Virus record (IMG/VR): IMGVR_UViG_3300018432_000569
Span: 1-25,777 of that record
Reading direction: 5' to 3' (one strand)
Source: a virus
DNA length: 25,777 nucleotides
How positions within the stretch are numbered: the first letter of the stretch is position 1; each line of letters begins with the position of its first letter. The translations under genes and the position numbers were made by a program. The notes beneath the pieces are model-generated. The model was not told the DNA's origin, ran no database searches, and saw nothing but the letters and a program-made list of their open reading frames with translations. Below are positions 1,179 through 24,898 of the stretch, one piece after another.

Positions 1179-3551
1179 GTGAGCGGCTACGTTCGCTGGC
1201 CGTTCCCTGCTCCCAGGCGGGCTGAAACCGGGCTCGCGTCCGGGATCGTCAGTGTCCCCACCAGCGGGTTTCTGGACGCATCCGCAACCCTCACGGGCGC
1301 TGGCGCCCTGGCCGGGACGGGCGGGATGCGGATGGCGGCGTCCGCGACCCTCACGGGCGCGGGCGCTCTCACGGGGACGGCTGTCGCGAACCAAGCCGGG
1401 GCCGCAACCCTCACCGGCGCGGGCGCTCTCACGGCTGCGGGCGGGTTCGTTCAGAACGCCGCCTCGACCCTAACGGGCACTGGTGCGCTCGCGGCGACGG
1501 GAGCGATGCGCGCGACCGCCGCCGCAACACTCTCCGGGGCGGGCGCGCTAGCAGCGACGGGGCAGCACACCATCGCCGGGGCCGCCACCCTGGCCGGCGC
1601 GGGATCACTCACCGCGACGGGCGCGATGCGCGCCAGCGGTATCGCGACCCTCCCGGGCGCCGGGTCGCTCGCTGCGACTGGCAGCCTTGTAGCAACCGGG
1701 GCCGCAACCCTCACCGGGGCGGGGACGCTCTCGGCGACGGGCGCAATGCGCGCCAGCGCAGTCGCGACGCTCACCGGGGCGGGGTCGCTGTCGGCGACCC
1801 CGGCCGCGATCTATCTCGACGCCGCAGCGACCCTCACCGGGACGGGGACGCTCACCGCGACCGGAGCGATGGTCGCTCCCGCCGCCGCAACACTCTCGGG
1901 TGCCGGGACGCTCGCGGCGACCGGAACCGCCAATCTCGCTGGTGCCGCGACCCTCACGGGGGCGGGGACGCTCTCCGCGACGGGGCAGCACACGATCGCT
2001 GGAGCTGCGGCCCTCTCGGGCGCGGGCGCGCTCAGTGCGACCGGCAACCTTGTCGCGAACGCCGCGGCGACCCTGGCCGCCGCGGGGACGCTGACGGCTA
2101 CCCCGGACGCGATCTACCTTGACGCTGCGTGCGCGCTCTCCGGGACCGGTGCGCTCTCCGCGACCGGGAACCTCCACGCATCCGCAGCTGCGGCCCTCAC
2201 CGGCGCCGGGGAGCTCACGGGGACAGCGAGCGCACGTCTCACGGCCGCCGCCACCCTCGCGGGCGCCGGGACGCTCGCGGGAACGGCGCAACATACGATC
2301 GCGGGCGCCGCAACCCTCACCGGCGCGGGATCGCTAGCGGCTACCGCTCGAGCGACCACGGACGCCGCCACCGCGCTCTCAGGGACGGGGACCCTCACCG
2401 GGACGGGGGCGCTCGTCGCGAATGGCGCCGCCCTGCTCACCGGCGCGGGCACCGCCACCGCGACCCCGGACGCGATCTACCTCAACGCGTCCGCGACCCT
2501 CACCGGCGCCGGGGCGCTCACGGGGACCGGCGCGATGAGCGCGACCGGGGCCGCGACCCTCACCGGGGCTGGCACAGCGACGGGGGCCGCCACCGCGAAT
2601 CTCGCGGCCGCCGCGACGCTCTCGGGCGCCGGTGCCCTGACCGGGGCCGGGCAACGCACGATCGCGGGCGCAGCCGCCATAACCGGGGCGGGCGCGCTCA
2701 CCGGGACCCCTCGAGCGACCCACGACGCTGCCACCACCCTTACGGGGGCGGGCGCGGTCACAGCCGCCGGGGCGCTCGTCGCGAACAGCGCCGTTCTCCT
2801 CACGGCCGCCGGGACGCTGTCCGCGACCCCGGACGCGATCTACCTCAACGCCGCCGTGACCCTCACCGCCAGTGGCGCACTCACCGCCGCTGGCGCGATG
2901 CGCACGGACGCCGCCACCCTCCTGGCCGGAGCGGGATCCCTCGCCGCATCGGCGTCCGCGCAGCTCTCCGCCAGCGCGACACTGACCGGCGCTGGCGCGC
3001 TCACCGCCGCCGGGCAACTCACGCGACTCGCCGCGGCAGCGCTCACCGGCGCCGGGACACTTCAGGCGACCGGGCACTCAACCGCGTACGCCGCTGCCGC
3101 CCTGGCCGCCGCAGGCGCGCTCACAGCGACCGCTGAAGCGCGCCTCCAAGCCGCCGCTGCGCTCGCCGGGACCGGGAGCCTCCAAGCCGCCGGCCAAGCC
3201 GCCCGAAACGCGAGCGCCCTGCTCGAGGGCGCAGCAACTCTCACCGCCAGCGCGGTCCTGGACGCCAACGCTAGTGCCCTGCTCACAGGGCTCGGGCACA
3301 TCCAGGTCACCACGATCACGATCGAGGACGTCGCCGCCGTCCTCACCGCGACCGGAAACCTCGTCGCGGCGGCGCATCTCACCGGCCTCGTCTTCACGTA
3401 CGAGGACCCAGCCGAAACCGTCACGTACGCGGGATCGGGCGCGTTCACGTATGGGCCTAGCAACGGGACACGAACGTATCCCGCGGACCAAGACCTCACA
3501 TACGGGCCCAGTACCGGCACCTACTCGTACTCCGGCCGCAACACCACCTAA
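1179..3551 (+). CDS. Giant 20-residue repeat protein, probable virion fibre
   Basis: 790 aa, GTG start. Residues 1-34 are unique. Residues 35-737 consist of about 35 consecutive units of 20 residues (four units have 21), consensus AATLTGAGxLxATGxxxxxA. Residues 738-790 form a different C-terminal domain with recurring TY-centred phrases (FTYEDP, VTYAGS, FTYGPS, LTYGPS, TYSYSG). Composition is extreme: almost all Ala, Thr, Gly, Leu and Ser, with very few charged residues in the units. The strand-turn-strand rhythm and constant unit length suggest a beta-solenoid or beta-roll rod, but a collagen-like or disordered rod cannot be ruled out. The neighbours are virion proteins ahead of the connector genes, so a head fibre or long appendage is the best guess. 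No enzyme motif is seen. Confidence 0.75.
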   Translation: MSGYVRWPFPAPRRAETGLASGIVSVPTSGFLDASATLTGAGALAGTGGMRMAASATLTGAGALTGTAVANQAGAATLTGAGALTAAGGFVQNAASTLTGTGALAATGAMRATAAATLSGAGALAATGQHTIAGAATLAGAGSLTATGAMRASGIATLPGAGSLAATGSLVATGAATLTGAGTLSATGAMRASAVATLTGAGSLSATPAAIYLDAAATLTGTGTLTATGAMVAPAAATLSGAGTLAATGTANLAGAATLTGAGTLSATGQHTIAGAAALSGAGALSATGNLVANAAATLAAAGTLTATPDAIYLDAACALSGTGALSATGNLHASAAAALTGAGELTGTASARLTAAATLAGAGTLAGTAQHTIAGAATLTGAGSLAATARATTDAATALSGTGTLTGTGALVANGAALLTGAGTATATPDAIYLNASATLTGAGALTGTGAMSATGAATLTGAGTATGAATANLAAAATLSGAGALTGAGQRTIAGAAAITGAGALTGTPRATHDAATTLTGAGAVTAAGALVANSAVLLTAAGTLSATPDAIYLNAAVTLTASGALTAAGAMRTDAATLLAGAGSLAASASAQLSASATLTGAGALTAAGQLTRLAAAALTGAGTLQATGHSTAYAAAALAAAGALTATAEARLQAAAALAGTGSLQAAGQAARNASALLEGAATLTASAVLDANASALLTGLGHIQVTTITIEDVAAVLTATGNLVAAAHLTGLVFTYEDPAETVTYAGSGAFTYGPSNGTRTYPADQDLTYGPSTGTYSYSGRNTT
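1281..3389 (+). repeat. About 35 tandem 60-base coding repeats with a 363-base super-repeat
   Basis: Each unit is 60 bases (63 for units ending AIYLDA or AIYLNA). The variable tail of each unit follows an order that itself repeats: AIYL-, AM-, xAxL-, QxTIAG, RATxDA, ALVAN-. The codons for AIYL begin at 1806, 2109, 2472 and 2835, giving intervals of 303, 363 and 363 bases. The last two copies are therefore exact six-unit super-repeats, and the first is one unit short. Confidence 0.9.
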
Positions 3552-3569: not shown

Positions 3570-3971
3570 GTGACCATCGGAAACACCGCCGAAGTCGAAA
3601 TCCTCAACTGCTACTTCAACGCAACGAACATCACCGCTCCAACGGTGATCGCCATGTCGCTGCACAGCGCCGACCCCGGCGACACCGGCGCCAGCGAACT
3701 CGCGAACGCGAACGCGTACGCCCGCGTCGTGTGCACCACCAGCTTCCCGACCGCATCCGGTACCGCCGGCACCCTCTCCAACGACGTCGAAATCGCGTTC
3801 CCGGAAGCGTCCGGCGCATGGTCCGCCGCCACGCACGTCGGGATCTGGTCAAGCGCGACATACGGCGCTGGCAACTTCATCTGGGGTGGCGCGATGACCG
3901 CATCCAAGACGGCTACCACCGGGGTTGTAATCCGCTTCCCCGTCGGGGACGTCGACATCACGCTCGACTGA
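3570..3971 (+). CDS. Phage fibre-type structural protein
   Basis: 133 aa, GTG start with a strong GGAGG 7 bases upstream. The pattern (ALHSADPGDTGASELA-like opening, then ARVVCTTSFPTA, then a D..I.FPEA.G.W motif, HVGIW, a TASKT step and a C-terminal DVDITLD) matches a widespread small phage structural family often annotated as tail-fibre or minor tail protein. The exact family name was not verified. It is an all-beta protein without signal peptide or membrane segments. It lies directly after the long repeat protein and before head closure, so it may act as its partner, cap or base. Confidence 0.7.
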   Translation: MTIGNTAEVEILNCYFNATNITAPTVIAMSLHSADPGDTGASELANANAYARVVCTTSFPTASGTAGTLSNDVEIAFPEASGAWSAATHVGIWSSATYGAGNFIWGGAMTASKTATTGVVIRFPVGDVDITLD

Positions 3972-6076: not shown

Positions 6077-6271
6077 ATGGGTCACTACAAAGTCATCGGT
6101 ATCCAGCCCGTCCTCGAGCACATGCCCGGCGACGAATTCGACGAGGACCTCTCGCCGGACTTGGAGGAGTTCCTCATTCAGAGCGGCTCCCTGGAGAAGG
6201 ACCCGGAGAAGCAGCCGGAACCGGAGCCTGAGGAGGAGGAGCCGGAGCCCGAGATCACTCAGGGGCCCTAG
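6077..6271 (+). CDS. Small acidic hypothetical protein
   Basis: 64 aa. It starts 3 bases after the preceding stop, with no clear Shine-Dalgarno, so is probably coupled to the previous gene. The N-terminal half (HYKVIGIQPVLEHMPGDEF) follows a pattern often seen in short phage proteins near the head-tail genes. The C-terminal third is a Pro-Glu tract (QPEPEPEEEEPEPE) and must be extended and highly acidic. Its stop TAG shares the bases CTAG at 6268-6271 with the stop of the opposing HNH gene, so the two genes abut tail to tail with no spacer. Function unknown. Confidence 0.65.
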   Translation: MGHYKVIGIQPVLEHMPGDEFDEDLSPDLEEFLIQSGSLEKDPEKQPEPEPEEEEPEPEITQGP

Positions 6272-6879
6272 CCGAGGTACCGCGGTTGTCGCGGCTTGCG
6301 CGGCGCATGGCGAGCGCACGACTGCGAACAGAACCGCCCGCGGCCCTTCTTGACCTGTGCGGGGATCGTTAGGAACGAGCCGCCGCAGGATTCGCATACG
6401 CGCTCGACGGCGCGCGTGCGTACGCCACTCCAGATCATCGTCAGTTCGTCGTCACGCAATGGCGCGCGCCCGCCGCGCTTCGTGCGATGGGCGTTGCATC
6501 TGTTGCACGACGGTACAAGGTTGTCGGCAGCATCGTTGGCGCGATCGTGATCGAGATGATCGGCGAGCAGTGATCCTGGCGTTGCGGGCCCACCGCCCAC
6601 GATCCATCGGACCGGAGTGTTGCACCAATGGCACGGATGCTCGCCCGGACCGATCTTGTCGTAGAGCACGATCCGGCTGATCAACGTGATCCCGCCGGGC
6701 GGGGCAATGGGATGGCTGCGCGCCATCCGCATCCGCCCCTCTACGCCCGGCGTGCGGTGCTCACCGCGCATTGATTCGAAGTAGCAAACCCGGGAGCAGA
6801 ATCGTCCCGGTCGACTTCCGTACCGAAGCCCGAACGGCTTCCCGCACGTAGCGCACAGCCCCGTCATGTCGTTGCCCAT
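6268..6879 (-). CDS. HNH endonuclease with flanking zinc ribbons
   Basis: About 203 aa from the start chosen at 6879 (MGND...). An upstream in-frame ATG at 6912 would overlap the neighbour's ribosome binding site and has no Shine-Dalgarno, and an ATG at 6867 is also possible. The core carries HPCHWCNTPV, then LLADHLDHDR, then NLVPSCNRCNAHR: the HNH fold with two CxxC pairs that hold zinc and the DHxDHD active-site region. A zinc ribbon lies on each side: CATCGKPF...GRFCSRVC at the N-terminus and CESCGGSF...GRFCSQSC at the C-terminus. These probably recognise DNA. It is the only gene on this strand and lies between the acidic protein and the tail tube gene, so it is probably a free-standing homing-type endonuclease that inserted there. 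It nicks or cuts DNA; the target is unknown. Confidence 0.85.
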   Translation of the reverse strand: MGNDMTGLCATCGKPFGLRYGSRPGRFCSRVCYFESMRGEHRTPGVEGRMRMARSHPIAPPGGITLISRIVLYDKIGPGEHPCHWCNTPVRWIVGGGPATPGSLLADHLDHDRANDAADNLVPSCNRCNAHRTKRGGRAPLRDDELTMIWSGVRTRAVERVCESCGGSFLTIPAQVKKGRGRFCSQSCARHAPRKPRQPRYLG

Positions 6880-6917
6880 CCCAGAAGTGTAGCACCTCGC
6901 AGGAGGCGGCATTACCC

Positions 6918-11380: not shown

Positions 11381-12253
11381 GTGCCGAATAACGCGCTGGT
11401 ATCCGCGCTCGCGCTCGAGGATGAGTTCGGGCAGATCACGCAGTTGCTCGCCCCCGGCTCCCGGCACGTCACCAGCATCGAAGGCGTCTTCGGCGCGAAG
11501 GCGCGGTCTGTGGTGGTGCCGCGCACGGGCCGGCACGGGACTCGTGCCCGGACACGGTTTTTGGATGATTCGCTGATCACTATCGCGTTCGATCTGCTCG
11601 GGGACACGGACGACGAGGTGTGGGCGGAGTACCGCGCGATCAGCGGCGCCCTCCAGAGCACCCTGGAAACGGAACGCCGTTTGCTGTGGACGTTCGGCAC
11701 GACCACGGCGTTGCAGTCACGTGTCAGGTTTGAGGAGATCACCGGGACCGTCGTCCCCGGCCCCCGCCGCCTCCAGTTCCAAGCGCACTTGCGGGCAACG
11801 GACCCGCGGGCGTACTCACAGACCCAGACGACGGTCGCTGGGAATCCGCTGTCGTCGACCACCACCGGCGGCGCCCGGTTCCCGCTCATGTTTCCCGTCC
11901 GGTTCAAGCCGTCGTCGACGTCGAGCGTGCAGCTCACGAACTTGGGGACAACCCCGACACCGCTGATCTTCGAGCTCCGCGGATACCTGCTGGATCCGCA
12001 GATCACGCTGGCCGGCACCGACCGCGCCCTGGTGTTCGTGGGGGATGTCGCGGCAGGGGACACGCTGACGGTCAGCAACATTGACCGTCCCGAGGTCTTG
12101 TTGAACGGGACCGCGAACCGGATGAACATGCTCGTCAGCGAGCGATCCCGCTGGTTCGATTTGCCGCGAGGGACGTGGACGATCAACCTGATCGCCCGTG
12201 ACTTCGGTACCGGCGCGTCCGTGTCGGTCCGGTACCGGCACGCCTACAAGTAG
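11381..12253 (+). CDS. Distal tail protein (Dit-like)
   Basis: 290 aa, GTG start 3 bases after the tape measure stop. The N-terminal half (GQITQLLAPGSRHVTSIEGVFGAKARSVVVPR, then a split-barrel part with EVWAEYRAISGAL) and the C-terminal galectin-like beta-sandwich (LTNLGTTPTPLIFELRGYL, then DTLTVSNIDRPEVLLNG) match the siphovirus Dit layout, including the LG..PT.P.f...G pattern and the tail segment with NLI.RD. Dit forms the hexameric ring at the tail end to which the hub and fibres attach. Its place just after the tape measure is canonical. What follows is not: the hub domain is more than 10 kb downstream. Confidence 0.85.
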   Translation: MPNNALVSALALEDEFGQITQLLAPGSRHVTSIEGVFGAKARSVVVPRTGRHGTRARTRFLDDSLITIAFDLLGDTDDEVWAEYRAISGALQSTLETERRLLWTFGTTTALQSRVRFEEITGTVVPGPRRLQFQAHLRATDPRAYSQTQTTVAGNPLSSTTTGGARFPLMFPVRFKPSSTSSVQLTNLGTTPTPLIFELRGYLLDPQITLAGTDRALVFVGDVAAGDTLTVSNIDRPEVLLNGTANRMNMLVSERSRWFDLPRGTWTINLIARDFGTGASVSVRYRHAYK

Positions 12254-13291: not shown

Positions 13292-16200
13292 ATGGCTGAG
13301 CTCGCTGATACCGTCACGATCCCCGGGCCCGTCGCGTACGCATCCAACGACGTGTACTTCCCGAACGGAGGCGCGGCGCAGTACCTCCACGGGGTACGGA
13401 TCGTCCCGCCCGAAACGCGGGTGTGGGACACGCTGGGGGTCGCGTGGAACTACATCGGCACGAACTGGAATAGCCCGGCGGCCGGGACCGCTTTAGGGTC
13501 CGGCGGCCTCATCTGGTTCACGGTCCACAACCAGCTTGCGGACGGGTTGCCGGACATGAGCTCGGCGCTCGCGACCGAACAACTTGCGGCCGACTCGAGC
13601 GGCCCCGGCGCGGGCGGCAACGTCTACCGGTACGACCAGCGAACCCGCGCACTGATCGGTGCGACGACCAACAGTTTCCTGATCCATATGAGCATTCCGG
13701 CCGGCCTGTCCGTGGTCGCCGGCCTCCCCATCTGGCTCGTCATCAGGAACATGCACGCGGACCCCGTCCTGAACGCGAGCGGCCCGAACTGGGTGACCAC
13801 AAGGAACACGATCCTGCTGCCGGACGGGACCGTCAAAACGCCGCCGAACCATGTGAACACGATCACGGCCGCGTCGTCGTACTCAACGCATGGCCTGGAC
13901 CCGCGGGAAGTGGTCGCGTCGAAGGCGCTCGCCACCGACCCGTGGGTGTTCAGTACCGCGGTCGGCAGGTATCCGGGTGCGAGCTCCGGGGTCGACAACG
14001 GCAACGACCACGCCCGCATCCCCGTGTACTTCTGGCGGGAACTGGGATCCACCCGGCTGCGGTCGAAGATGCCGTTCACGGGGCAGCGGATCGCGTCAGC
14101 GGCAACCCCGACGGTTACGCGGATGGATGCCGTCAACGCGGCATCATTGAAGTACGCGCTCGCGAATCCCACGACCGCAGGGACGTGCACCGTCACCGCG
14201 CAGGTCCTGAACGCGGATGGCACGAACAATGGGTCCGCGGTCGTGAGCCCGGCGAGCGCCGCGGCCCCCACCGGTGGTGGCCCCGTTGTCGTGCAGTTCG
14301 CGGCGCCGGTCGCGGTCGCCGCCGGGCAAGGCATTCGCCTCACGTGCTCGAAGGCGGTGTGGATGGGGGTCGCGGACGCGTATCTCCGTCGCGTGTTCGA
14401 TGAATCCGACGACTGGCAGTACACCTCCAATAGTGCGCCGCACTACCCGGACATTGTCGCGTTCGGTGCCCGCGGCGTCGCGGACTGGCCCTGGTCGCAT
14501 TCCAACAGGCAGGCGGCCGCCACCGGGCAGGCCGGGGCGACAGCGGTCGCGACGAACCTGGTTGCGTCGGCGAATACCGTGACGTTCGCGGCGACCCGGG
14601 GGGCGGCGAGTCCCGACGCGAAACGTGTCCGGATCGTTGATACGTCAGCGGGCGCCAGCCGCGGGTTCACGGCTACGGTGACCGGTGACTCCGTCGGTTG
14701 GCTTCGTGTACGCGTCGGAACGACCGGGGCGGTCGGCACGACCGCGACCGGAACGGCGGACACCGACCTCTACCTTCTCGCGACCAACCAGGCCACCAGC
14801 GGGAACTACACGGCGACGGTCGGGATCACGCCGGCGCAGGGCGGGGACACCATCCCCGCGATCGCGGCGTCCATGAGTGTCACGGACGCGCAACCCGTCG
14901 GCCCGTACGACGCGGAAGTCGCGGCTGTCGCGACCCGGTTCTGGAAACTCGAGGAACTCACCGGCGATTTCCCGGACAGCAAGGGGGGCGCGAGTCTCGC
15001 GCTGACCGGTACCGGCGCGGTCCGCGGGATTGACATCAACGCGCCCGTGTCCACCACCACGGGGTTCCGTGTCGCGGTAGACGCGCTCGGGTCGGCGGTC
15101 ATCGCGCACTGGCCGCTCGGGGAAGCCGCTGGCGGTGGCGCTACCGGCACCACCGTGTACAGCGGACTGTCGCGCACCAACAGCGTGGCCGGGAAAACGT
15201 CGGATGCCGTGCCATGGCCGACCAGTACCGCGATCGGGGATGTCGTCGTCCTCGCTGTGCACATCGAGTCCGCGACCGCGGTCACCACGGCCGTCGCGTC
15301 CGGCGGGTCCACTGCGTGGGTGCAACGAGACTCGACTCGGATCACGGCGTCCGGGGATCGCAACTCGATCTGGACGAAACGCGTTGAGGCCGGGGATCTC
15401 GCGAACCCGATCAGCGTCACGTGGGGTGGCATCGCCGTCCGGTGCACCAGCACCGCGATACGGGTGACCGCCGCGAAGGCAACAGGCGAATTCGTCAACC
15501 AGGTCAGTGGCGCCACCGGGGCTGCCGCAACGTTCACTGCCCCCGGGTTCACGACCACCCAGAAGTCGCTGATCCTGTACATCGAGATGAGCCGGTGGGA
15601 TCTCAACGAAACGCCACCCGCCGGATACACGGAACGCCAAGACCTCAGCGCCACAGAGATCTACGTCGCGTCCCTCGATCAGGGCGCGGCCGGCGCGGTC
15701 GCCGCCGCCGGGGCGACAACTCCCGCCGGGGAATCCACGGACTACGCGGCGTTCCTGATCGCGATCGAACCGGAAGGCGTCGCGGTCGTCAACGCGGTCG
15801 ACCGAAAGGGCGCCCGCAACGGGGTCGCGAACGGCGCGATCACCCGGAACGTCACCACCCTCCTCACGGACGGGACCGCGGACGGCGCCGTCCAGGTCGG
15901 CGGCACCGACACGGTGCCGACCACCGGGTACTTCGAGGTGCCCGCGACGACCGCGTTGCAGACCCCTGCGTTCACGGTCATGGCGTGGGTCAAAGTCACG
16001 GGCGGGCAGGGCACCAGCCGCACAGTCATCAGTTACCGCGACAGCGGGGTCAGCATCGCGCGCGGCTGGTACATCGTTGCCGCATCCACGAACCGGTGGC
16101 GGTTCCTGGTTGGCCTGTCCGACAACACGTTCGTGACCGTCGAAAGCGTCGAGACCGTCCAAGTCGGACAGACCGTGTTCCTCACCGGAACATGGGAGGG

Positions 16201-17848
16201 AGGCGTCCCCAAACTGTACGTGAACGCGGGCGCCGCGAACAGCACGGTGCCGTCCGGAACGTACAACCAGACGCACGCCGTCAGTCGCCCCCTCCGGATC
16301 GGCGCTGGCCGCAACGAGACAACCGCGAACGACTTCTTCCGCGGCGTCATCGACGAATGCGTGCTCCTCACGCAGGCACTGTCCGCGAACCAGATTCAGG
16401 CGCACTACCTTGCGGGCACGTCCGGGGCTACCAGCCCGCCGCCGCCGCCGCCGCCGTCACCACCCGGAGTCATTCTCGTCACGAACTTCCGTGCGGTCGG
16501 GCAGGTTCTCAACTGGACGGCCGTATCGGGTGCCTCCGGGTACACGGTCGCGGCAGTCCATTCCCCGTACACCGCTGTCGCCGCTCGCGAGCTGTACACG
16601 GTGTCCGGAGGGTCAACGACATCCTTCGACCCGCCCGACGTGACCGGTGAGGTTATCCATTACGACATCACCCCGCACATCACGAACGGGGGGTACCTGG
16701 GGGACGCCGCTGGGGGGGACGCGAATCGCGTATCGATCTCGTACGCCACGAGTCCGCCGCCGCCGACGTCCTCGATTACGGTCACGACATTGGCGCCGTC
16801 CGCGACGACAACCTCAACGTTGCAGTTGCTTGGGCAGCTCACGAATCTCGCGGGTACCACGGGGACCGCGGTCTTCCAGTACGGGACGTCCAGTACCAAC
16901 CTGTCGTCCACGACACCGGGGGAAGCGATCAACGGCATCGACCAGTTCGTGTCGCATCTCGTGACCGGCCTGAACGCGGGGACCATGTACTTCTTTCGGC
17001 TCGCGTTCACACCCGCAACGGGCGGGCAGCTCTTCGGGTCGACGCTGTCCGCGTCAACGCAGGCGCCGACGTCCCCGCCGCCCGGTGGCGGCCCGACATT
17101 CGGGCCGTTGCTCACGTCGATCACGATGGAGAGCGGCAACCTGAATGAGTGGAGCGGAAACGGCTCTGGTGGTGGCGGAATTTTCGACACGCTTCCTGCC
17201 GTCTCGAGCGCGAGTCAGGATCGCGCGCATACGGGGTCGTGGTCGGCGCGGATGCGCTGGGCCGGGCCGCCGACCGCGGAAGGCGAACCAGGGTGCCGAC
17301 TATTTCGGTGGGCTGAACTGAACGCCAACCGTGAGCTGTACATCGAGCGGTGGCTGTTTATCCCGTCGCTTTACACCTTGAACGGGAGCGGCGGCCAGTT
17401 CATGATGCTGGACCAGTTCAAATCACGGACGTCGACCCGTAACGACCCGATCTGGTACATCGATGCGTACCCCCAGGGCGGCGCGATCGTGCCGTATCTG
17501 ACGTGGGGTCCGCAGTCCGGGCTCGCCGGCCCAACATCGGGCGAGGCGGCGGGCCAGAAGAACTACAACCCGACGGGTAACGCAACGCTGCCGATCGGGT
17601 CATGGTTCAAGCTCACCTCGTTCATCCGCCAGTCGAGCGCGTTCGACGGGACCATCCGGTACTGGCTCAACGACGTGCTGATCCACGACCGACCGAACGT
17701 GCGAACGGGGCACCCGAACAACGGGCAGACCATCTCCAACGCGTGGGGTGTTGATCAGCACTGGGCGATCAACAACTACTCGGACGGGATTAGCCCGTCC
17801 CCGTTCGACGTGTACGTTGACGACGTCAAGATCTATCAGGTGCCATGA
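13292..17848 (+). CDS. Giant modular tail fibre protein with LamG, BACON, Fn3 and lyase-like modules
   Basis: 1518 aa, ATG 3 bases after the previous stop. Modules: residues 1-415, unknown beta-rich N-terminal region; 420-535, BACON-like; 546-595, orphan start of a LamG/ConA domain (FWKLEELTGDFPDSKGG); 596-617, start of a second LamG (VIAHWPLGEAAGG); 618-830, a complete module like the first protein of this window; 832-1045, rest of the second LamG (VDRKGARNGV ... PAFTVMAWVKV ... RGVIDECVLL); seven prolines; 1058-1150, Fn3; 1158-1263, a second Fn3-like domain; 1268-1518, a jelly-roll resembling polysaccharide lyases (MESGNLNEW, HTGSWSARMRW, YIERWLFIP, YVDDVKIY). Likely a tail-tip fibre that binds, and may trim, surface glycans. 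The last ATGA overlaps the next gene. Module calls are by eye. Confidence 0.8.
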   Translation: MAELADTVTIPGPVAYASNDVYFPNGGAAQYLHGVRIVPPETRVWDTLGVAWNYIGTNWNSPAAGTALGSGGLIWFTVHNQLADGLPDMSSALATEQLAADSSGPGAGGNVYRYDQRTRALIGATTNSFLIHMSIPAGLSVVAGLPIWLVIRNMHADPVLNASGPNWVTTRNTILLPDGTVKTPPNHVNTITAASSYSTHGLDPREVVASKALATDPWVFSTAVGRYPGASSGVDNGNDHARIPVYFWRELGSTRLRSKMPFTGQRIASAATPTVTRMDAVNAASLKYALANPTTAGTCTVTAQVLNADGTNNGSAVVSPASAAAPTGGGPVVVQFAAPVAVAAGQGIRLTCSKAVWMGVADAYLRRVFDESDDWQYTSNSAPHYPDIVAFGARGVADWPWSHSNRQAAATGQAGATAVATNLVASANTVTFAATRGAASPDAKRVRIVDTSAGASRGFTATVTGDSVGWLRVRVGTTGAVGTTATGTADTDLYLLATNQATSGNYTATVGITPAQGGDTIPAIAASMSVTDAQPVGPYDAEVAAVATRFWKLEELTGDFPDSKGGASLALTGTGAVRGIDINAPVSTTTGFRVAVDALGSAVIAHWPLGEAAGGGATGTTVYSGLSRTNSVAGKTSDAVPWPTSTAIGDVVVLAVHIESATAVTTAVASGGSTAWVQRDSTRITASGDRNSIWTKRVEAGDLANPISVTWGGIAVRCTSTAIRVTAAKATGEFVNQVSGATGAAATFTAPGFTTTQKSLILYIEMSRWDLNETPPAGYTERQDLSATEIYVASLDQGAAGAVAAAGATTPAGESTDYAAFLIAIEPEGVAVVNAVDRKGARNGVANGAITRNVTTLLTDGTADGAVQVGGTDTVPTTGYFEVPATTALQTPAFTVMAWVKVTGGQGTSRTVISYRDSGVSIARGWYIVAASTNRWRFLVGLSDNTFVTVESVETVQVGQTVFLTGTWEGGVPKLYVNAGAANSTVPSGTYNQTHAVSRPLRIGAGRNETTANDFFRGVIDECVLLTQALSANQIQAHYLAGTSGATSPPPPPPPSPPGVILVTNFRAVGQVLNWTAVSGASGYTVAAVHSPYTAVAARELYTVSGGSTTSFDPPDVTGEVIHYDITPHITNGGYLGDAAGGDANRVSISYATSPPPPTSSITVTTLAPSATTTSTLQLLGQLTNLAGTTGTAVFQYGTSSTNLSSTTPGEAINGIDQFVSHLVTGLNAGTMYFFRLAFTPATGGQLFGSTLSASTQAPTSPPPGGGPTFGPLLTSITMESGNLNEWSGNGSGGGGIFDTLPAVSSASQDRAHTGSWSARMRWAGPPTAEGEPGCRLFRWAELNANRELYIERWLFIPSLYTLNGSGGQFMMLDQFKSRTSTRNDPIWYIDAYPQGGAIVPYLTWGPQSGLAGPTSGEAAGQKNYNPTGNATLPIGSWFKLTSFIRQSSAFDGTIRYWLNDVLIHDRPNVRTGHPNNGQTISNAWGVDQHWAINNYSDGISPSPFDVYVDDVKIYQVP
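16436..16456 (+). repeat. Poly-proline linker, 7 Pro
   Basis: Seven CCG codons, then Ser and two Pro, separate the LamG domain from the first Fn3 domain. The stretch marks a module border, as in the later genes. Confidence 0.85.
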
Positions 17849-18951
17849 GCGGCGCGACCACCGTAGGCGGATTGCCGTCCGTCGCAAACGCGAAAGGTGT
17901 CCGCCTCAACGGCGCGTACCTGACCGCACTCGACGCGCTGGTAGGGACGCGCCCCCCGACCGTTACCGGGGCATTCAGTATGGGCGGCCTCTACCGGCCG
18001 CTCACATTGACGGGTCCGCAACGACTCGTCACAAAGGTTGACAATCCGGACCTCACGACAGAAGCCGGCATGGTCGCGTGGGTGACCCCGACATACGCGC
18101 GGATGGCGAGGATCGGGACCGCAACGAACGGGAACACGGGCGCGTACCGTGGCGTGTACGACGAAACAACGGCGGGTGCTCCCACGGTCGGATCATGGCA
18201 TTCATGGGGATGGCGGTACGACCCGACCGCCACGAACCCGGTGACCCCGGAGAACCCGACGGGCGCGCCCGGCCGGTCCGCGTTCTTTCAGTACGGCACC
18301 CTGAAAGCGGAAGCCGATACCCGCGGGATTACCGTGCCGGCAACGATCGCCGCGCTCGTAATCGGCGCGAAAAGTGATGGGACCTCCCCGTTTCTCGGTG
18401 AGGTCAGTCGCGTCTGGGTTGCGGAGGGCACGGCGCTCTCCGATGCCTGGTTCGCCCGGGCGGAGACCGCTCGCGTGTTTGGCGCGACCGCGCTGTCCGC
18501 GATCCGTACCACCCCCCAGTCCCTGACCGTCACCGCCCCGGTCGGGTCCACGACACCCGTGCAGGCGTCCCTGCAAGTTACGCAGGCGATCCCCGGCGGC
18601 AACCCCAACTTCTCGCTGACGCTACCGACACGGATCACCGCGACCGGGTCCCTGAGCGCTCCCACGACGCTCGCGCTGTCCGTCAGCCCCACCGGGCTTA
18701 CGGCTGACACCAACGTGAATATCACGATCACGCCAGCGGACACCACGCAGGCGCCGTTCACGGTCCCCGTCCTGATCGACATGATCTCAAGCGACCTTGT
18801 TGTCAGCCCGACGAGCATCGCCCTGAACGCGGTCGCCGGGGCGTCCACATCCAATACGCAGCGACTGACGGTCACGCAACAGGTCGCGGGTGGCCTTACG
18901 GGGTTCACGATCAGTACGCCCGTTCCGTGGCTCCGGATCAGCCAGGTCTAA
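17845..18951 (+). CDS. Tail-tip protein with headless LamG and truncated BACON modules
   Basis: 368 aa; ATG in an ATGA overlap with the previous gene, AGGTG 5 bases upstream. Residues 1-215 are the later part of a LamG/ConA-like domain (VANAKGVRLNGAYLTALDAL, then an ending FLGEVSRVWVAEGTALSDAW), but the usual opening strand with its xWxLxE motif is missing. Residues 220-315 form a BACON-like domain ending VPVLID. Residues 316-368 (LVVSPTSIALNAVAG ... PVPWLRISQV) are only the first half of a second BACON domain, stopped by TAA. The missing LamG opening is matched by an orphan fragment in the previous protein (residues 546-595), and the missing BACON half by residues 95-150 of the protein at 22589. 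Probably structural or glycan-binding. Confidence 0.72.
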   Translation: MSGATTVGGLPSVANAKGVRLNGAYLTALDALVGTRPPTVTGAFSMGGLYRPLTLTGPQRLVTKVDNPDLTTEAGMVAWVTPTYARMARIGTATNGNTGAYRGVYDETTAGAPTVGSWHSWGWRYDPTATNPVTPENPTGAPGRSAFFQYGTLKAEADTRGITVPATIAALVIGAKSDGTSPFLGEVSRVWVAEGTALSDAWFARAETARVFGATALSAIRTTPQSLTVTAPVGSTTPVQASLQVTQAIPGGNPNFSLTLPTRITATGSLSAPTTLALSVSPTGLTADTNVNITITPADTTQAPFTVPVLIDMISSDLVVSPTSIALNAVAGASTSNTQRLTVTQQVAGGLTGFTISTPVPWLRISQV

Positions 18952-18955
18952 CGTC

Positions 18956-21900
18956 GTGGCGACCCTCACCTTTCCGCATGCGCTGCGTCTCGGTAGCACC
19001 GCGATCGGCCTGCAGAACGCGATCACGTCCGGGGCGATCACGTTCCCGGTCGCGGTCGCCGGCCGCGACGCTGACACCCTGGATCGCCTCTACGTCCTCT
19101 CCCGCGACGCGCTCCGTGTGTGGGTAGTCAAGGACGGCGCCGTTCTCGCGACCCCCGCGCTTGATCTCTCGAGTATCGCGAGCGTGTTCGGACAGGAAGG
19201 TGGCTGCCTCGGGCTCGCCGTCTACCCGACCCTTGTCTCCAGCCAGCTCGTCCTATTCGTGTCCTGGACGGACAATGTCGGGACCCTCCGCGTCAGCCGA
19301 TTCACCGGGACCGGCGGCAACCTGGACGCGGTCACGCTCGCGAGCCGCGTTGACCTGATCAGCGCCACGAACACGACCGGCATCCATTACGGGGGATGCC
19401 TACGCCTCGATTCCGACGGCAAACTCCTCGCCAGCATCGGGGACAAGGGGGACCCGCTCGCCGCGGACGGCCCCCAGAACGCCACGTCCGCGTACGGCAA
19501 GATCAACCTGTTCACGGCGCCGCTGACCGCAACCACCCGTGTCGTCGGGGCATTGGGACTGCGGAACCCGTGGCGGTTCGACATTGACCGGACCGTCACC
19601 GCCGTGCCCGGCACCCTGTTCCCGCAACCGGTGTACATCGCGGATGTCGGGTCTGACCCCGCCACGACCGCCGTCCCCAGGGAGGAGATCGATTACATCG
19701 CGGCCGGTACCAACGCGGCCGTCAACTTTGACTGGCCGAACCGGGAGGGGACATTCACCCGGGTCGCGGCGGTCACGATCAGCGCGTCCCAACCGACATC
19801 AACGAGTCTCACGTTCCTCGGACAGATCCTGCCGCAGAACAACGCGGGGACCGCGTTCTTTCAGTGGGGGACCAGCCCTCTCAGTCTCTCGAATTCCACG
19901 ACGGGAGAGGCGGTCGCCGGCCCCGACCAGTTCATTCAGCACACCATCACGGGGCTCACGGTCGGGACGACGTACTACTTCCGGACGGCGTTCACATGGT
20001 CGGGCGGGACCGTCACCGGCGCGACCCTGGACGCGGAAACCACGTCCACGCTCCAGTCCGCGCTGTCCTCCGGAACGATCACGTATCCAATCCAGCTCGC
20101 CGCACGCGCAACGGACCTCACGGACAGATTCTACGTCGCCTCGAGAACCACCGGCCGGGTGCTTGTCGTCAAGTCCGGCACCGTCCAATCGGTTCCGGCG
20201 CTGGACATTTCGAGCATTTACAGCGTGTTCGGAAACGAGGGCGGACTCCTTGGGCTCGCGATTCATCCCGACCTTGATACGGGCGGGAACATCGCGATGT
20301 ACGTGTCATGGACGAATTCCAGCGGCACACTGTTCGTCAGCGAATTCAAGTCAACGGGGAACGTTGATGTGTGCTCGTTCGCGACCCGGCGGGACATTCT
20401 GACCGACGCGAACCGGGACGCCCAGGGCCGCCACTTCGGGGGATGCCTCCGCTTCGACGTCGACCGGAAACTGTGGTTCAGTGCGGGGGACGCGAACAAC
20501 GAGACGGACGCCACGAACGGGCCGCAGTCCACGAACACCGCGCCGCGCGGGAAGATGGTGTTCTGGACGAGCCCTCGCACGTCGGCGACGTTCGCGGTCG
20601 GCGCGAAGGGCCTCAGGAATCCGTGGCGGTTCGATTTCGATCCGGGTGTGCTCGGGGTCGCCGGCGCGATGTGGACGCAGTCCTGCTACATCGGGGATGT
20701 CGGGTCCGACACGGGACACACATCCGTCCCACGGGACGAGGTGGATTACGTCGTCGCTGGGCGGACGACACTCGCGAACTTCGGATGGCCGAACCGGGAG
20801 GGAACGATCCTCCGCAACTCGGCGAACACGGGGGGTTTCGCGAACTACACGTCCGGTGTCGCTGGGGAGATCCTGCCGATCCGGGAGTACCCGTTCAACA
20901 CGAGCACGATCCGGGCGATCGTGGTCGGCGCGCCCATCCGGGATGACAACGCCACCGGCGGCTGGGCGGACAAGGTCCCGATCGGTGACTTCATCTCAGA
21001 CCAGCTCAGGGTTATCGATGCGGTCACCGGCGCGAACGACGCGGTCGCGCCGCAGTCCGCGCTCACGAACGTCGTTTCCATTGATCGCGACCAGTTCAAC
21101 CAGGTCTACTACCTCACCAGCGCCGGGCAGGTCCTCCGGCTCGGGAATCGCGCGACGATCCCTACCAGCCCCCCGCCCCCGCCGCCACCGCCGCCGCCGC
21201 CGCCACCGCCGCCGGGGACGACAGTGGTCGCGGAGACCTTGTCATCGCATGACATTACGACCACCACGATCAGGTTTCTCGGGCGCATCACGAACGTTGG
21301 CGGAGATCTCGGGGACGCGTTCTTTCAGTACGGCACCACGAGCACGAACCTGAACCTGTCAACGGCGATTGACACGATCGACGGGACCGACCAGTTCATC
21401 ACGGACACCGCGACCGGGCTGACCGCGAGCACCACCTACTTCTTTCGGCTCGCGTACACCATCGCGAGCGGCGCGGTCACCACCACCGGCGTGACCCTGT
21501 CCGCCACCACGCTTGCCGTTGGTCCCCCGCCGCCGCCACCGCCACCGCCCCCGCCGCCCACGGGCGGCACGAACGTTGATACCAGCCTGTTGTGGACCGC
21601 GAACTCGAGCGTGTTTCTACCGGCGCCGTTGCCGCTGAGCTCGGGGTCGATCGTGACCGCGAACAGCGGCAACTGGCAGTCCGTGATCGCCGGGGCCGCC
21701 GCGGGAACAACGGTCAAGCTGGCGGGCGGGACGTACAACTTCTCGGATCTCCCGAACTCCGGGTGGGCTAAGAGCGTCACGAACCCGGTGACGATCATCC
21801 CGGACGGGGACAGCGCGATCGTGTCCATGGAACGCTTCATGCAGTTCGATGGCTCGATCAGCGGCCTCCGGTTCCGGCGGCTCCGGCTGTCCGCGGACAT

Positions 21901-22585
21901 CGAATACGCCGTCTCCTTTCAGCAATCGACCAGTTGGGTGGAATTCTCGTTCTGCGAGCTGATGGGTGCCGCCGGCGGCACCCCCATGCAAGGCTTCCTG
22001 TTTCAGTCCGGAGCTGCGAGCGCGAGCACCCCGCATCACTGCTTCGCGTTCGGGAACATCATTCACCGCGTATCCCCCGTGAACTACCCCGGCCCCGACC
22101 CGGACTCCCACGTCCACGGCGTGTACATGGCAGCCGCCGTCGACTGCGTTGTGGCATGTAACCGCATTGATGCGCAACCCGGCTGGAACCTCCACGGGTT
22201 CGGGGCGTTCCGCAACAGCTTCTGCGGGTTCAACTACTGCCAGGGAACGTCCGGGCAGAACAGTCTGACGTGGGGTGGCAACGACGAGGCGTCCCGTGGC
22301 CGACCGACGAACAACCGGATCTACGGGAACGTTGGCCACCAGGGATACGAGTCGTTCCAGATGGGGTCCAACAACATTTTCCAGTACAACTGGGGAACGA
22401 ACGTGAACCTCGGATCGTCGTGGACGCTCGCGCTCGGGTCCGGCAACCCGTCCGTCAGCTCGATCGGGAAGCCGCTCGCCGGGAGTCCGCTGATCGGCAA
22501 GGTCCCGAACCCGGGGATCCGGTTTGACCAGGCCGGCGTCACCCGACCGACGGGGAACTGCGCCGCGGGCGCATACGAGCCGTAA
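18956..22585 (+). CDS. Tail protein with two sugar-dehydrogenase-type propellers and a beta-helix
   Basis: 1209 aa from the GTG at 18956, 5 bases after the previous stop. Residues 1-262: a glucose/sorbosone-dehydrogenase-like beta-propeller (IHYGGCLRL with H144, then GALGLRNPWRF, then DWPNREGTF) that lacks its last section. Residues 268-365: Fn3-like domain. Residues 366-735: a second, complete propeller (RHFGGCLRF with H493, GAKGLRNPWRF, GWPNREG, then LPIREYP and a final VYYLTSAGQVLRLG). Then 15 Pro; 752-855, another Fn3-like; 12 Pro; and 872-1209, a right-handed beta-helix of pectate-lyase/tailspike type ending GAYEP. The propellers keep the His and the GLRNPWRF motif of the PQQ enzymes, but enzymatic use in a virion is unproven; glycan binding is an alternative. 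The next gene is in the same frame after one TAA. Confidence 0.8.
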   Translation: MATLTFPHALRLGSTAIGLQNAITSGAITFPVAVAGRDADTLDRLYVLSRDALRVWVVKDGAVLATPALDLSSIASVFGQEGGCLGLAVYPTLVSSQLVLFVSWTDNVGTLRVSRFTGTGGNLDAVTLASRVDLISATNTTGIHYGGCLRLDSDGKLLASIGDKGDPLAADGPQNATSAYGKINLFTAPLTATTRVVGALGLRNPWRFDIDRTVTAVPGTLFPQPVYIADVGSDPATTAVPREEIDYIAAGTNAAVNFDWPNREGTFTRVAAVTISASQPTSTSLTFLGQILPQNNAGTAFFQWGTSPLSLSNSTTGEAVAGPDQFIQHTITGLTVGTTYYFRTAFTWSGGTVTGATLDAETTSTLQSALSSGTITYPIQLAARATDLTDRFYVASRTTGRVLVVKSGTVQSVPALDISSIYSVFGNEGGLLGLAIHPDLDTGGNIAMYVSWTNSSGTLFVSEFKSTGNVDVCSFATRRDILTDANRDAQGRHFGGCLRFDVDRKLWFSAGDANNETDATNGPQSTNTAPRGKMVFWTSPRTSATFAVGAKGLRNPWRFDFDPGVLGVAGAMWTQSCYIGDVGSDTGHTSVPRDEVDYVVAGRTTLANFGWPNREGTILRNSANTGGFANYTSGVAGEILPIREYPFNTSTIRAIVVGAPIRDDNATGGWADKVPIGDFISDQLRVIDAVTGANDAVAPQSALTNVVSIDRDQFNQVYYLTSAGQVLRLGNRATIPTSPPPPPPPPPPPPPPPGTTVVAETLSSHDITTTTIRFLGRITNVGGDLGDAFFQYGTTSTNLNLSTAIDTIDGTDQFITDTATGLTASTTYFFRLAYTIASGAVTTTGVTLSATTLAVGPPPPPPPPPPPPTGGTNVDTSLLWTANSSVFLPAPLPLSSGSIVTANSGNWQSVIAGAAAGTTVKLAGGTYNFSDLPNSGWAKSVTNPVTIIPDGDSAIVSMERFMQFDGSISGLRFRRLRLSADIEYAVSFQQSTSWVEFSFCELMGAAGGTPMQGFLFQSGAASASTPHHCFAFGNIIHRVSPVNYPGPDPDSHVHGVYMAAAVDCVVACNRIDAQPGWNLHGFGAFRNSFCGFNYCQGTSGQNSLTWGGNDEASRGRPTNNRIYGNVGHQGYESFQMGSNNIFQYNWGTNVNLGSSWTLALGSGNPSVSSIGKPLAGSPLIGKVPNPGIRFDQAGVTRPTGNCAAGAYEP
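21170..21214 (+). repeat. Poly-proline linker, 15 Pro
   Basis: Fifteen consecutive proline codons (mostly CCG, some CCC and CCA) join the second propeller to the following Fn3-like domain. Confidence 0.9.
21524..21559 (+). repeat. Poly-proline linker, 12 Pro
   Basis: Twelve consecutive proline codons join the Fn3-like domain to the beta-helix. Confidence 0.9.
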
Positions 22586-22588
22586 CCG

Positions 22589-24898
22589 ATGGCTGATCCG
22601 ATCCGGGAGTACCCGCGCGACCAGTTTCCGACGTGGCGCGCCTCGATCGTTGGCGCCCCCGTCCAGAACACGGAGGCGGTCGGCTGGACGACGGCGGTCC
22701 CTGTCGCTGACTTCAACGCGGGCGCTCTGCGGCTGATTGACAAGGTCACTGGCGGGAATGACCGGTCCGCGCCGATCCCCGCGCTCGCGCAGGTCGTGTC
22801 CATTGACACGGTCCGGGGGGAGACGTACTTCCTGACCTCCACGGGCGGCGTGTACCGCCTCGGGGCGACCACGGACCCGGAACCCCCCGTGTCCACGCAG
22901 ACGCTGTACGACATTACGGCGCTGCCCGTAGGCCTGGCTGCCGGGTCGTACACGACGACGATCACGATCACCCCAGCGGACACGGGGCAGTCCCCGATTG
23001 TGGTGCCGGTCGTGTTGACCGTTGTTGCGGCGCCATCCCCGCCGCCGCCGCCGCCGGGGACCGGGACGGTCATCTACAGCAACACGCCGATGGCGTTCGA
23101 TATCGCCGGCCTGACGACGGGGCTCGCGTCCGGGACGATGTTGACGACGACGCTGACGGTGGTGCCGGACACGACGTTCCCGTCCGTGTCCGGCGGCGGG
23201 CAGGACGACCAGTTCCTGCTGTTGGACCCGGACGCGGCCGCGACCGCCGCGAACGAGCCCGGCGCGATCACCATTCCCGTCACGCTCACCGTCGGCGCGA
23301 CCGCACCACCACCGCCGCCTCCCCCGCCGCCTCCGCCGCCTCCTCCGCCGCCGCCTCCTCCGCCTCCGCCGCCGCCGCCGGGGACGACGATTGTGGTCGC
23401 GACACTGGCGCCGTCGACGGTGACGTCGACGTCGCTGGTCGTTCGCGGGGAAATCACCGGGCTCGCGGGGATCACGGGCACCGCGTTCTTTCAGTACGGC
23501 ACGACCGCGACCGGCCTGACGTCCACGTCAACGGCGCAGGCCGTGAGCGCCGACCAGTTCGTGTCGCAGACGATCAGCGGACTGGTTCCGTCAACGACGT
23601 ACTTCTACAGGCTGATGTTCACGTGGTCGGGGGGGACCGCCCCGGGCGCGACGACCACGGCGGTAACCAGCGCGGTCGTGAGTCCGCCGCCACCCGCGCC
23701 GCCACCACCGGGGGGGCCGCCGCCCACGTCACCACCGACCCCGCCGGGCGTGGAGCCGGACCCGGACGCCCCCCGCTCCCGTGCCCGTCCGTACTGGGAT
23801 TTCGTGCTCGCCGCCTCGAACGGCGTGAGGATCGCGAGCCTCCCGATCCGTCCCAAACTGACGTTCCAGTTGAACCGGCCGACCCTGGTCACGTTCGACC
23901 TGTACCACGACGACCCCGACGCCGCCGAGTTCTACACCGCGCTCGCGAATGGGATCCCGCAGTTGCGGGCGTACCGGAACGGGGTGCTCGTCTTCAGTGG
24001 CCTGATGCGCCCGTTCGACGAGACCAGCGACCCGCAGACCTCGACGATGACCCTGGTCTTCGCGGACCCCATGGCCATTCTCGGGTCCCGGCACGTCACG
24101 GGCCTTCACACCCAAGTGGACGCCGGCGAGATCGCGTGGCAATCCATCCGGGCTGCGCACATCAACAGTCCCGTCCCGGTCATCCGCGGCACCATCCAAA
24201 CAACCGTCTTGCGGGACCGTCAGTACGAACGCAAACAGATCCTCGAACTGATCCAGCAGCTCACCGAGGTCGACGGCGGCTTCGATTACGCGATCACGCC
24301 ACTGGATCCCACAATCGCGGGGGGTGGGGCGCTCGGCGCGTTCAACGTCGTTGCGCGCGCCGGGACAGACATCAGCGCGAGCGTCCGATTTGAGCAGGGT
24401 GACGGCACCCTCGACAACGTCCTGAACCGTCGCCGCCAAGTCGAGCTGCCAGTCAACTACGTCATCGCAATGGGCGCGCAGAACGAGAACGGCGTCACGT
24501 TGACCGCGACCGCGGAAGACACCGTCAGCCGCGACAAGTACGGCCGGTACGAGCGGCAAGAGTCGTTCTCGGATGTCAGCGAGCTCGCGACCCTCCAACA
24601 ACACGCGCAGGACCTCCTGCGACCGGATCCGGTGATAACCGAAGCGTTTGAACCGGACCCGGAGACGGCGCCGTGGCCGTGGGATGACTACTGGCTCGGG
24701 GACACGGTCGCGTATCGCGTCGAAACGGACGCCGGCCGCGTGTCCGGCACCACGCGCGTGATGGGCGTCGAGATCGAACTGGACGACCAGGGCAACGAGA
24801 CTGCGCACAGGTTGACGCTGGGTGAGCAGCACCCGCGCAGGTTCCCCGTCGACACGATCCGGGACCTCACGCGCCGCCTGTCGGCACTCGAAAGGTAG
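22589..24898 (+). CDS. Baseplate hub (Tal/Gp37-like) fused to adhesin module fragments
   Basis: 769 aa, ATG 3 bases after the previous stop and in the same frame; no clear Shine-Dalgarno. Residues 1-91 (PIREYPRDQFPTWRASIVGAP ... TYFLTSTGGVYRLG) are the closing part of a sugar-dehydrogenase propeller. Residues 95-150 are the second half of a BACON domain (ALPVGLAAGSYTTTITITPAD ... VPVVLTV). Residues 160-239 resemble another BACON second half with an acidic insert. Then come 25 prolines, an Fn3-like domain (267-363) and a Pro-Gly linker. Residues 395-769 are the tail hub domain (RPYWDFVLAASNG, then LRAYRNGVLVFSGLMRP, then LIQQLTEVDGGFDYAI, then WLGDTVAYRVET and a final HRLTLGEQ), typical of ReqiPepy6-Gp37-like siphovirus hub proteins, which close the tube below Dit. 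The hub domain normally comes straight after Dit with no such N-terminal load. Confidence 0.82.
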   Translation: MADPIREYPRDQFPTWRASIVGAPVQNTEAVGWTTAVPVADFNAGALRLIDKVTGGNDRSAPIPALAQVVSIDTVRGETYFLTSTGGVYRLGATTDPEPPVSTQTLYDITALPVGLAAGSYTTTITITPADTGQSPIVVPVVLTVVAAPSPPPPPPGTGTVIYSNTPMAFDIAGLTTGLASGTMLTTTLTVVPDTTFPSVSGGGQDDQFLLLDPDAAATAANEPGAITIPVTLTVGATAPPPPPPPPPPPPPPPPPPPPPPPPPGTTIVVATLAPSTVTSTSLVVRGEITGLAGITGTAFFQYGTTATGLTSTSTAQAVSADQFVSQTISGLVPSTTYFYRLMFTWSGGTAPGATTTAVTSAVVSPPPPAPPPPGGPPPTSPPTPPGVEPDPDAPRSRARPYWDFVLAASNGVRIASLPIRPKLTFQLNRPTLVTFDLYHDDPDAAEFYTALANGIPQLRAYRNGVLVFSGLMRPFDETSDPQTSTMTLVFADPMAILGSRHVTGLHTQVDAGEIAWQSIRAAHINSPVPVIRGTIQTTVLRDRQYERKQILELIQQLTEVDGGFDYAITPLDPTIAGGGALGAFNVVARAGTDISASVRFEQGDGTLDNVLNRRRQVELPVNYVIAMGAQNENGVTLTATAEDTVSRDKYGRYERQESFSDVSELATLQQHAQDLLRPDPVITEAFEPDPETAPWPWDDYWLGDTVAYRVETDAGRVSGTTRVMGVEIELDDQGNETAHRLTLGEQHPRRFPVDTIRDLTRRLSALER
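23306..23380 (+). repeat. Poly-proline tract, 25 Pro
   Basis: Twenty-five consecutive proline codons in mixed use of CCG, CCT, CCA and CCC, followed by Gly-Thr-Thr. It separates the BACON-like remnant from the Fn3-like domain and is the longest of the linkers here. Confidence 0.92.

Follow-up and report, generated by a model that had tools for sequence, protein, structure and literature searches.

A GD domain probably nested in a LamG domain of a tail-fibre-type protein from a viral contig

Phage tail proteins commonly undergo domain shuffling (PMC10684548), and in the evolved Dit of siphophages a carbohydrate-binding module is inserted in the distal tail protein itself (PMC6669499, PMC10688798). 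Phage attachment proteins are known to take up domains by insertion, and the locus described here is a new instance of this, probably with a GD domain inside a LamG domain. As in evolved Dit, the extra domain sits inside a structural protein of the tail tip, a role in binding to the host surface is proposed, and the uninterrupted form, which in the present case is LamG, can be aligned to the sequence on either side of the insertion (alignment A3). The recipient is different: in the siphophage systems it is Dit, whereas here Dit is a separate gene and the recipient is the LamG fold of a fibre-type protein. The guest is different as well: in evolved Dit it is a carbohydrate-binding module, whereas here it is GD, a putative adhesion-type domain without a Pfam or PDB sequence match. 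The mosaicism of tail-fibre domains offers a second comparison, in that protein modules are shuffled in receptor-binding proteins (PMC10684548); there, however, modules are reused in other combinations, whereas in the locus under study the joints lie inside domains.

The window, i.e. the whole stretch of DNA that was analysed, comprises the 25,777 bases of an IMG/VR viral record that is listed as linear and formed by a single viral contig. It carries siphovirus structural genes for a head/fibre protein, head-tail connectors, the major tail protein, the tape measure and Dit (11381-12253; SPP1_Dit, E 8e-9), followed by large fibre-type ORFs. The 1518-aa product of ORF 13292-17848 is a virion protein of tail-tip or fibre type, the C-terminal 240 aa of which are weakly polysaccharide-lyase-like. 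Table 1 shows the features of this protein and of the related free-standing protein. In the head/fibre region, a 790-aa protein (1179-3551) consists nearly entirely of repeats of the type ATLTGAGALTATG and shows a weak Fil_haemagg match, and the stretch 3570-3971, close to the free-standing GD protein, matches both Pfam Gp80 (E 3e-31; fibre I protein of podophage GP4) and PHROG 240 'head protein', the former over the full length. The minus strand holds a 214-aa ORF (6268-6912) that encodes CxxC motifs in pairs and a stretch resembling HNH (CHWCNTPVRW...LLADHLDHDRAND...NRCNAHR), for which a Pfam search returned a sub-threshold zinc-finger match only.

Table 1. Features of the probably interrupted LamG domain and related elements of the window.
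Feature	Positions	Strand	Basis
Fibre-type virion protein, 1518 aa, carrying the probably interrupted LamG domain	13292..17848	+	ORF; Pfam; downstream of tape measure and Dit genes
Segment A, candidate truncated start of another LamG, residues 541-592 (FWKLEELTGDFPDSKG...)	14912..15067	+	LamG model positions 10-48 alone, 8.4 bits
Segment B, probable first strand of the interrupted LamG, residues 596-614, VIAHWPLGEAAG	15077..15133	+	Joining gain; sliding scan; alignment A3; model 2
Probable inserted GD domain and short linkers, residues 615-831 (~217 aa); profile core 640-809; modelled strands 623-825	15134..15784	+	Family profile; AlphaFold model 1
LamG/ConA-like body, residues 832-1045	15785..16426	+	Pfam; LamG model positions 26/27-223; ConA-like fold in model 1
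Free-standing GD-domain protein, 235 aa	1..708	+	Family profile E 6.2e-20, positions 1-175/175

The LamG domain of the 1518-aa protein probably carries a whole second domain of beta-sandwich type, the GD domain, in the loop between a strand at residues 596-614 and the remainder at 832-1045. A first-pass annotation of the window had proposed a complete module between the first strand of a LamG and its continuation, and this was borne out by the score of the joined parts, a sliding scan, a gapped alignment and an end-to-end match to the GD profile. All the peptides it quoted are in frame within ORF 13292-17848, namely VDALGSAVIAHWPLGEAAG at residues 596-614 (15077-15133), GDVVVLAV at 649-656, AFLIAIEPEG at 820-829 and VVNAVDRKG from residue 832 (15785), so that strand, GD domain and body follow one another in a single open frame. 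The extent needed correction: the insert is nearer 217 residues (615-831) than the 210 or so first given, and the span 15077-15800 stops short of the end of the LamG body, which continues to residue 1045 (16426).

The body is recognised by Pfam Laminin_G_3 at residues 877-1036 (E 2.7e-21; 76.7 bits against a gathering score of 27.6; profile positions 3-151 of 151). As the Pfam model itself has no first strand, longer LamG models were built from IMG/VR viral loci with the window excluded. The body alone enters these models at position 21-27, and the first 20-26 positions are absent directly upstream of it, where the first strand would normally stand. Joining the two parts, as the earlier annotation had suggested, completes the profile: the body alone scores 88.8 bits with a start at model position 27, and residues 590-614 joined to 834-1045 score 102.5 bits with a start at position 10, while shuffled N-terminal pieces joined to the body reached a maximum of 91.1 bits in 200 shuffles. 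The gain on joining is 12-14 bits, compared with at most 2-4 for shuffles. Among 7,283 segments of 25 residues taken from 18 proteins of the window, the two that best completed the body, whichever of two LamG models was used, were 590-615 and 535-559. In the unforced MAFFT alignment A3, the 'VLADSPVAYWRLGEASG' start of all 25 viral LamGs fell on residues 596-614, followed by a gap of about 215 columns and then by the body. On the LamG model, segment B ends practically where the body starts, with hardly any position lost or covered twice, and segment B directly precedes the insert. Segment B is too short to be recognised outside this context, since a first-strand profile, run by itself on the whole ORF 13292-17848, did not find it (<5 bits). 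In an uninterrupted relative (L042), FN3 domains follow an ordinary LamG that shares 32% identity with the body. In ordinary LamG/ConA-like domains of phage structural proteins (Laminin_G_3), which are of the same sequence type and predicted fold, the first strand stands directly before the body, whereas in the window it lies about 217 residues upstream.

The insert, judged by its profile match, is a complete member of a widespread, unnamed family, here called GD. A profile of 35 viral relatives, with the window excluded, matched over its entire length both the protein at 1-708 (E 1.8e-16) and, less strongly, the insert (E 3.9e-4); with 121 sequences, again without the window, the values were E 6.2e-20 for the protein and E 3e-8 for the insert (positions 4-174 of 175). 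Relatives were fetched with family consensus sequences as queries, and these consensuses seeded the first rounds of profile building; the profiles were trained without the window and the conclusions use the real sequences fetched. Searches of the insert against Pfam, PHROGs and NCBIfam assigned it to no family, and for the GD domain as such no Pfam or NCBIfam family and no PDB chain related by sequence was found; PHROGs 3329 and 13624 match some other members. The domain has about 200 aa with the pattern GDxxLA...W...AGATG...ALRP and is widespread (loci L002-L039 and L120-L163); bacterial surface-type proteins often contain several copies of it, and phages have it too. Beyond viruses, members occur in Chloroflexi, Proteobacteria, Actinobacteria, Rokubacteria and one archaeal MAG. 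GC content is 0.677 in the insert and 0.676 in the LamG body. For the insert, the LamG region, the tape measure, the GSDH domain and the tail protein, near relatives were sought in viral contigs, genome contigs and phages, and none or only remote ones were found.

The kinship of the insert with the 235-aa protein holds through the family profile but not in direct comparison, as BLASTP between the two was not significant (E 0.48); in a pairwise shuffle test z was about 5, and the score was reached by none of 300 shuffles. The further proposal that the insertion ties a tail fibre to a protein of the head region found no support in this form. Given that GD is frequent among bacterial surface proteins and occurs in many phages, and that the two sequences have no significant direct similarity, nothing points to a specific transfer; on sequence grounds, the tie between them is one of shared family membership and not a special one between head and tail. 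Gene order is the sole basis on which the protein at 1-708 was assigned to the head, and in other viral contigs free-standing GD proteins adjoin tail-fibre genes.

GD and LamG occur together in 12 ORFs including that of the window. In the other 11 the two domains stand in tandem or apart, never nested, with GD preceding LamG in six proteobacterial loci and LamG preceding GD in two viral loci (L003, L043) and three Micromonospora loci. Such proteins (e.g. bacterial L129, L133 and L141, and viral L003 and L043) thus bring the same two domains into one chain side by side or apart, whereas in the window one is likely contained in the other; no second case of GD inside LamG was found among these 11 ORFs.

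Two AlphaFold models were made with different alignments, because a joint MAFFT alignment of full LamG and GD rows misplaced one of the sets. In model 1 (residues 535-1048, with an alignment that gave no help before residue 622), GD and the LamG body fold well, with pLDDT mostly 80-92 for GD, residues 535-621 stay below 50, and matches to ConA-like folds begin at residues 829-831, directly after GD. Model 2 (residues 590-1048) was supplied with LamG rows that include the first strand and with no GD rows. The upstream strand (596-614) is predicted to take the canonical first-strand position of LamG, residues 590-609 having a pLDDT of 82-84 with a strand at 603-607; the insert, for which no relatives were aligned, was left unmodelled. 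The LamG part of this model (model residues 9-451) superimposes on domain 4 of AbnA with an rmsd of 2.8 (Z 19.7), 194 of 206 residues being matched. The predicted fold is compatible with the insertion, which the docking of the strand in model 2, assisted by the supplied alignment, supports and does not prove. Foldseek/VIA matches to neurotoxin receptor-binding domains and sialidases were considered for a functional reading and set aside, as they are generic ConA-like jelly rolls that say nothing on function.

The choice of partner for the body has to be weighed against segment A, the truncated start of a LamG with no body of its own behind it. Segments A and B complete the body equally well (101.8 vs 102.8 bits with LamG model lm1; 90.0 vs 88.8 with lm3), and score therefore does not settle which is the true partner. 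Were the first strand to be segment A (541-560), the insert would be larger, running from about 560 to 831 and comprising a second LamG start as well as GD, and the arrangement would still be that of a domain inside LamG. This version is improbable: although segment A was present, MAFFT with 25 LamG rows chose segment B in all 25 (with 12 rows the outcome was mixed), and segment A stays LamG-like well past the break (model positions 10-48), which would leave a duplicated piece. Segment A is, moreover, a good completer of the LamG-like ORF 17845-18951, and segment B is not. The first 215 residues of that ORF are weakly LamG-like, and its ATG overlaps the stop codon of the 1518-aa ORF (ATGA). 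Joining segment A to it raised the score from 15.6 to 28.7 bits (lm3; shuffle maximum 20.5), while segment B gave no help. In a wider scan, segment A was the best completer with lm3, one chance segment being close (25.5 vs 23.3), but with lm1 a piece of the real LamG body outscored it. The sequence evidence that segment A (14912-15067) may be completed by the start of this ORF (17845-18490) is only suggestive.

It is also conceivable, if unlikely, that there is no continuous LamG at all. Segments A and B would then be leftovers of lost LamGs, with GD and a strandless body joined behind them by recombination, and the body would fold without a first strand or use the linker GVAVVNAV in its place. 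Several truncated pieces nearby (segment A, and the GSDH halves in two ORFs), the start of the ConA-like matches of model 1 right behind GD, and the frequency of domain shuffling in phage tail proteins (PMC10684548) all fit such debris. Against it stand the near-seamless fit of segment B and body on the LamG model, the place of segment B immediately before the insert and a frame that is open over 4.5 kb. A wrong joining of strain variants of a repeat-rich fibre locus during assembly is very improbable; although the locus comes from a single contig and its FN3, GSDH and proline-linker modules are repeated, all frames are open, GC content is even and the LamG/GD junctions have no long exact repeat. 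The insertion of GD between segment B and the body is still the explanation preferred here.

Other modules of the fibre cluster are broken up too. A GSDH beta-propeller is divided between two ORFs, residues 21-292 of ORF 18890-22585 and residues 1-100 of ORF 22589-24898, its halves lying within 18890-22588 and 22589-22890. When joined, they match a complete second propeller over its full length (48% identity, E 9e-109). The intervening ~2.8 kb encode an FN3-like module, this complete second propeller, another FN3-like module and about 350 residues that, from their sequence, look like a beta-helix. Proline-rich linkers (CCGCCG) at 16428-16793, 21152-21588 and 23028-23757 flank four FN3-like modules with 45-52% identity in three ORFs, and these linkers and FN3 repeats are likely places for recombination. 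ORFs 17845-18951 and 18890-22585 share 62 bases (18890-18951), read in different frames; the first stops within a repeat-like domain, which may reflect a frameshift, real or due to sequencing. Segment A and the other broken domains had been missed in the first-pass annotation; with segment A and the split propeller beside the interrupted LamG, domain interruption appears repeated in the locus, which suggests not one neat insertion but a region of modules that repeatedly interrupt one another.

In a more far-reaching and doubtful reading, the fibre cluster would have been built by repeated, nested insertion of cassettes into domain loops: GD into LamG; GD, LamG, FN3 and lyase (2.8 kb, with a stop and restart) into another LamG; and FN3, propeller, FN3 and beta-helix (2.8 kb) into the GSDH propeller, with the halves of the outer domains, carried by adjacent co-translated ORFs, assembling between chains. 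If true, halves joining between chains would tie separate polypeptides of the tail tip together.

For the GD insertion itself, the proposed course is simpler. The two junction regions have no direct repeat of at least 7 bases in common, which points to illegitimate recombination, and the insertion may have arisen in this way in a cluster of fibre genes whose modules break into one another. LamG would still fold, its first strand docking across the insert, and GD would project from the LamG loop as an extra bead on the tail-tip fibre, serving in surface binding or as a spacer; the lectin-like and GD domains could both bind polymers of the host surface. The locus, in which three domains are apparently broken at complementary positions, makes the reassembly of split halves testable. 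The finding also brings out a widespread, unnamed domain common to bacterial surface-type proteins and phage fibres, and it indicates that a lectin-like domain of a phage attachment protein, and not its linkers only, can receive an additional module.
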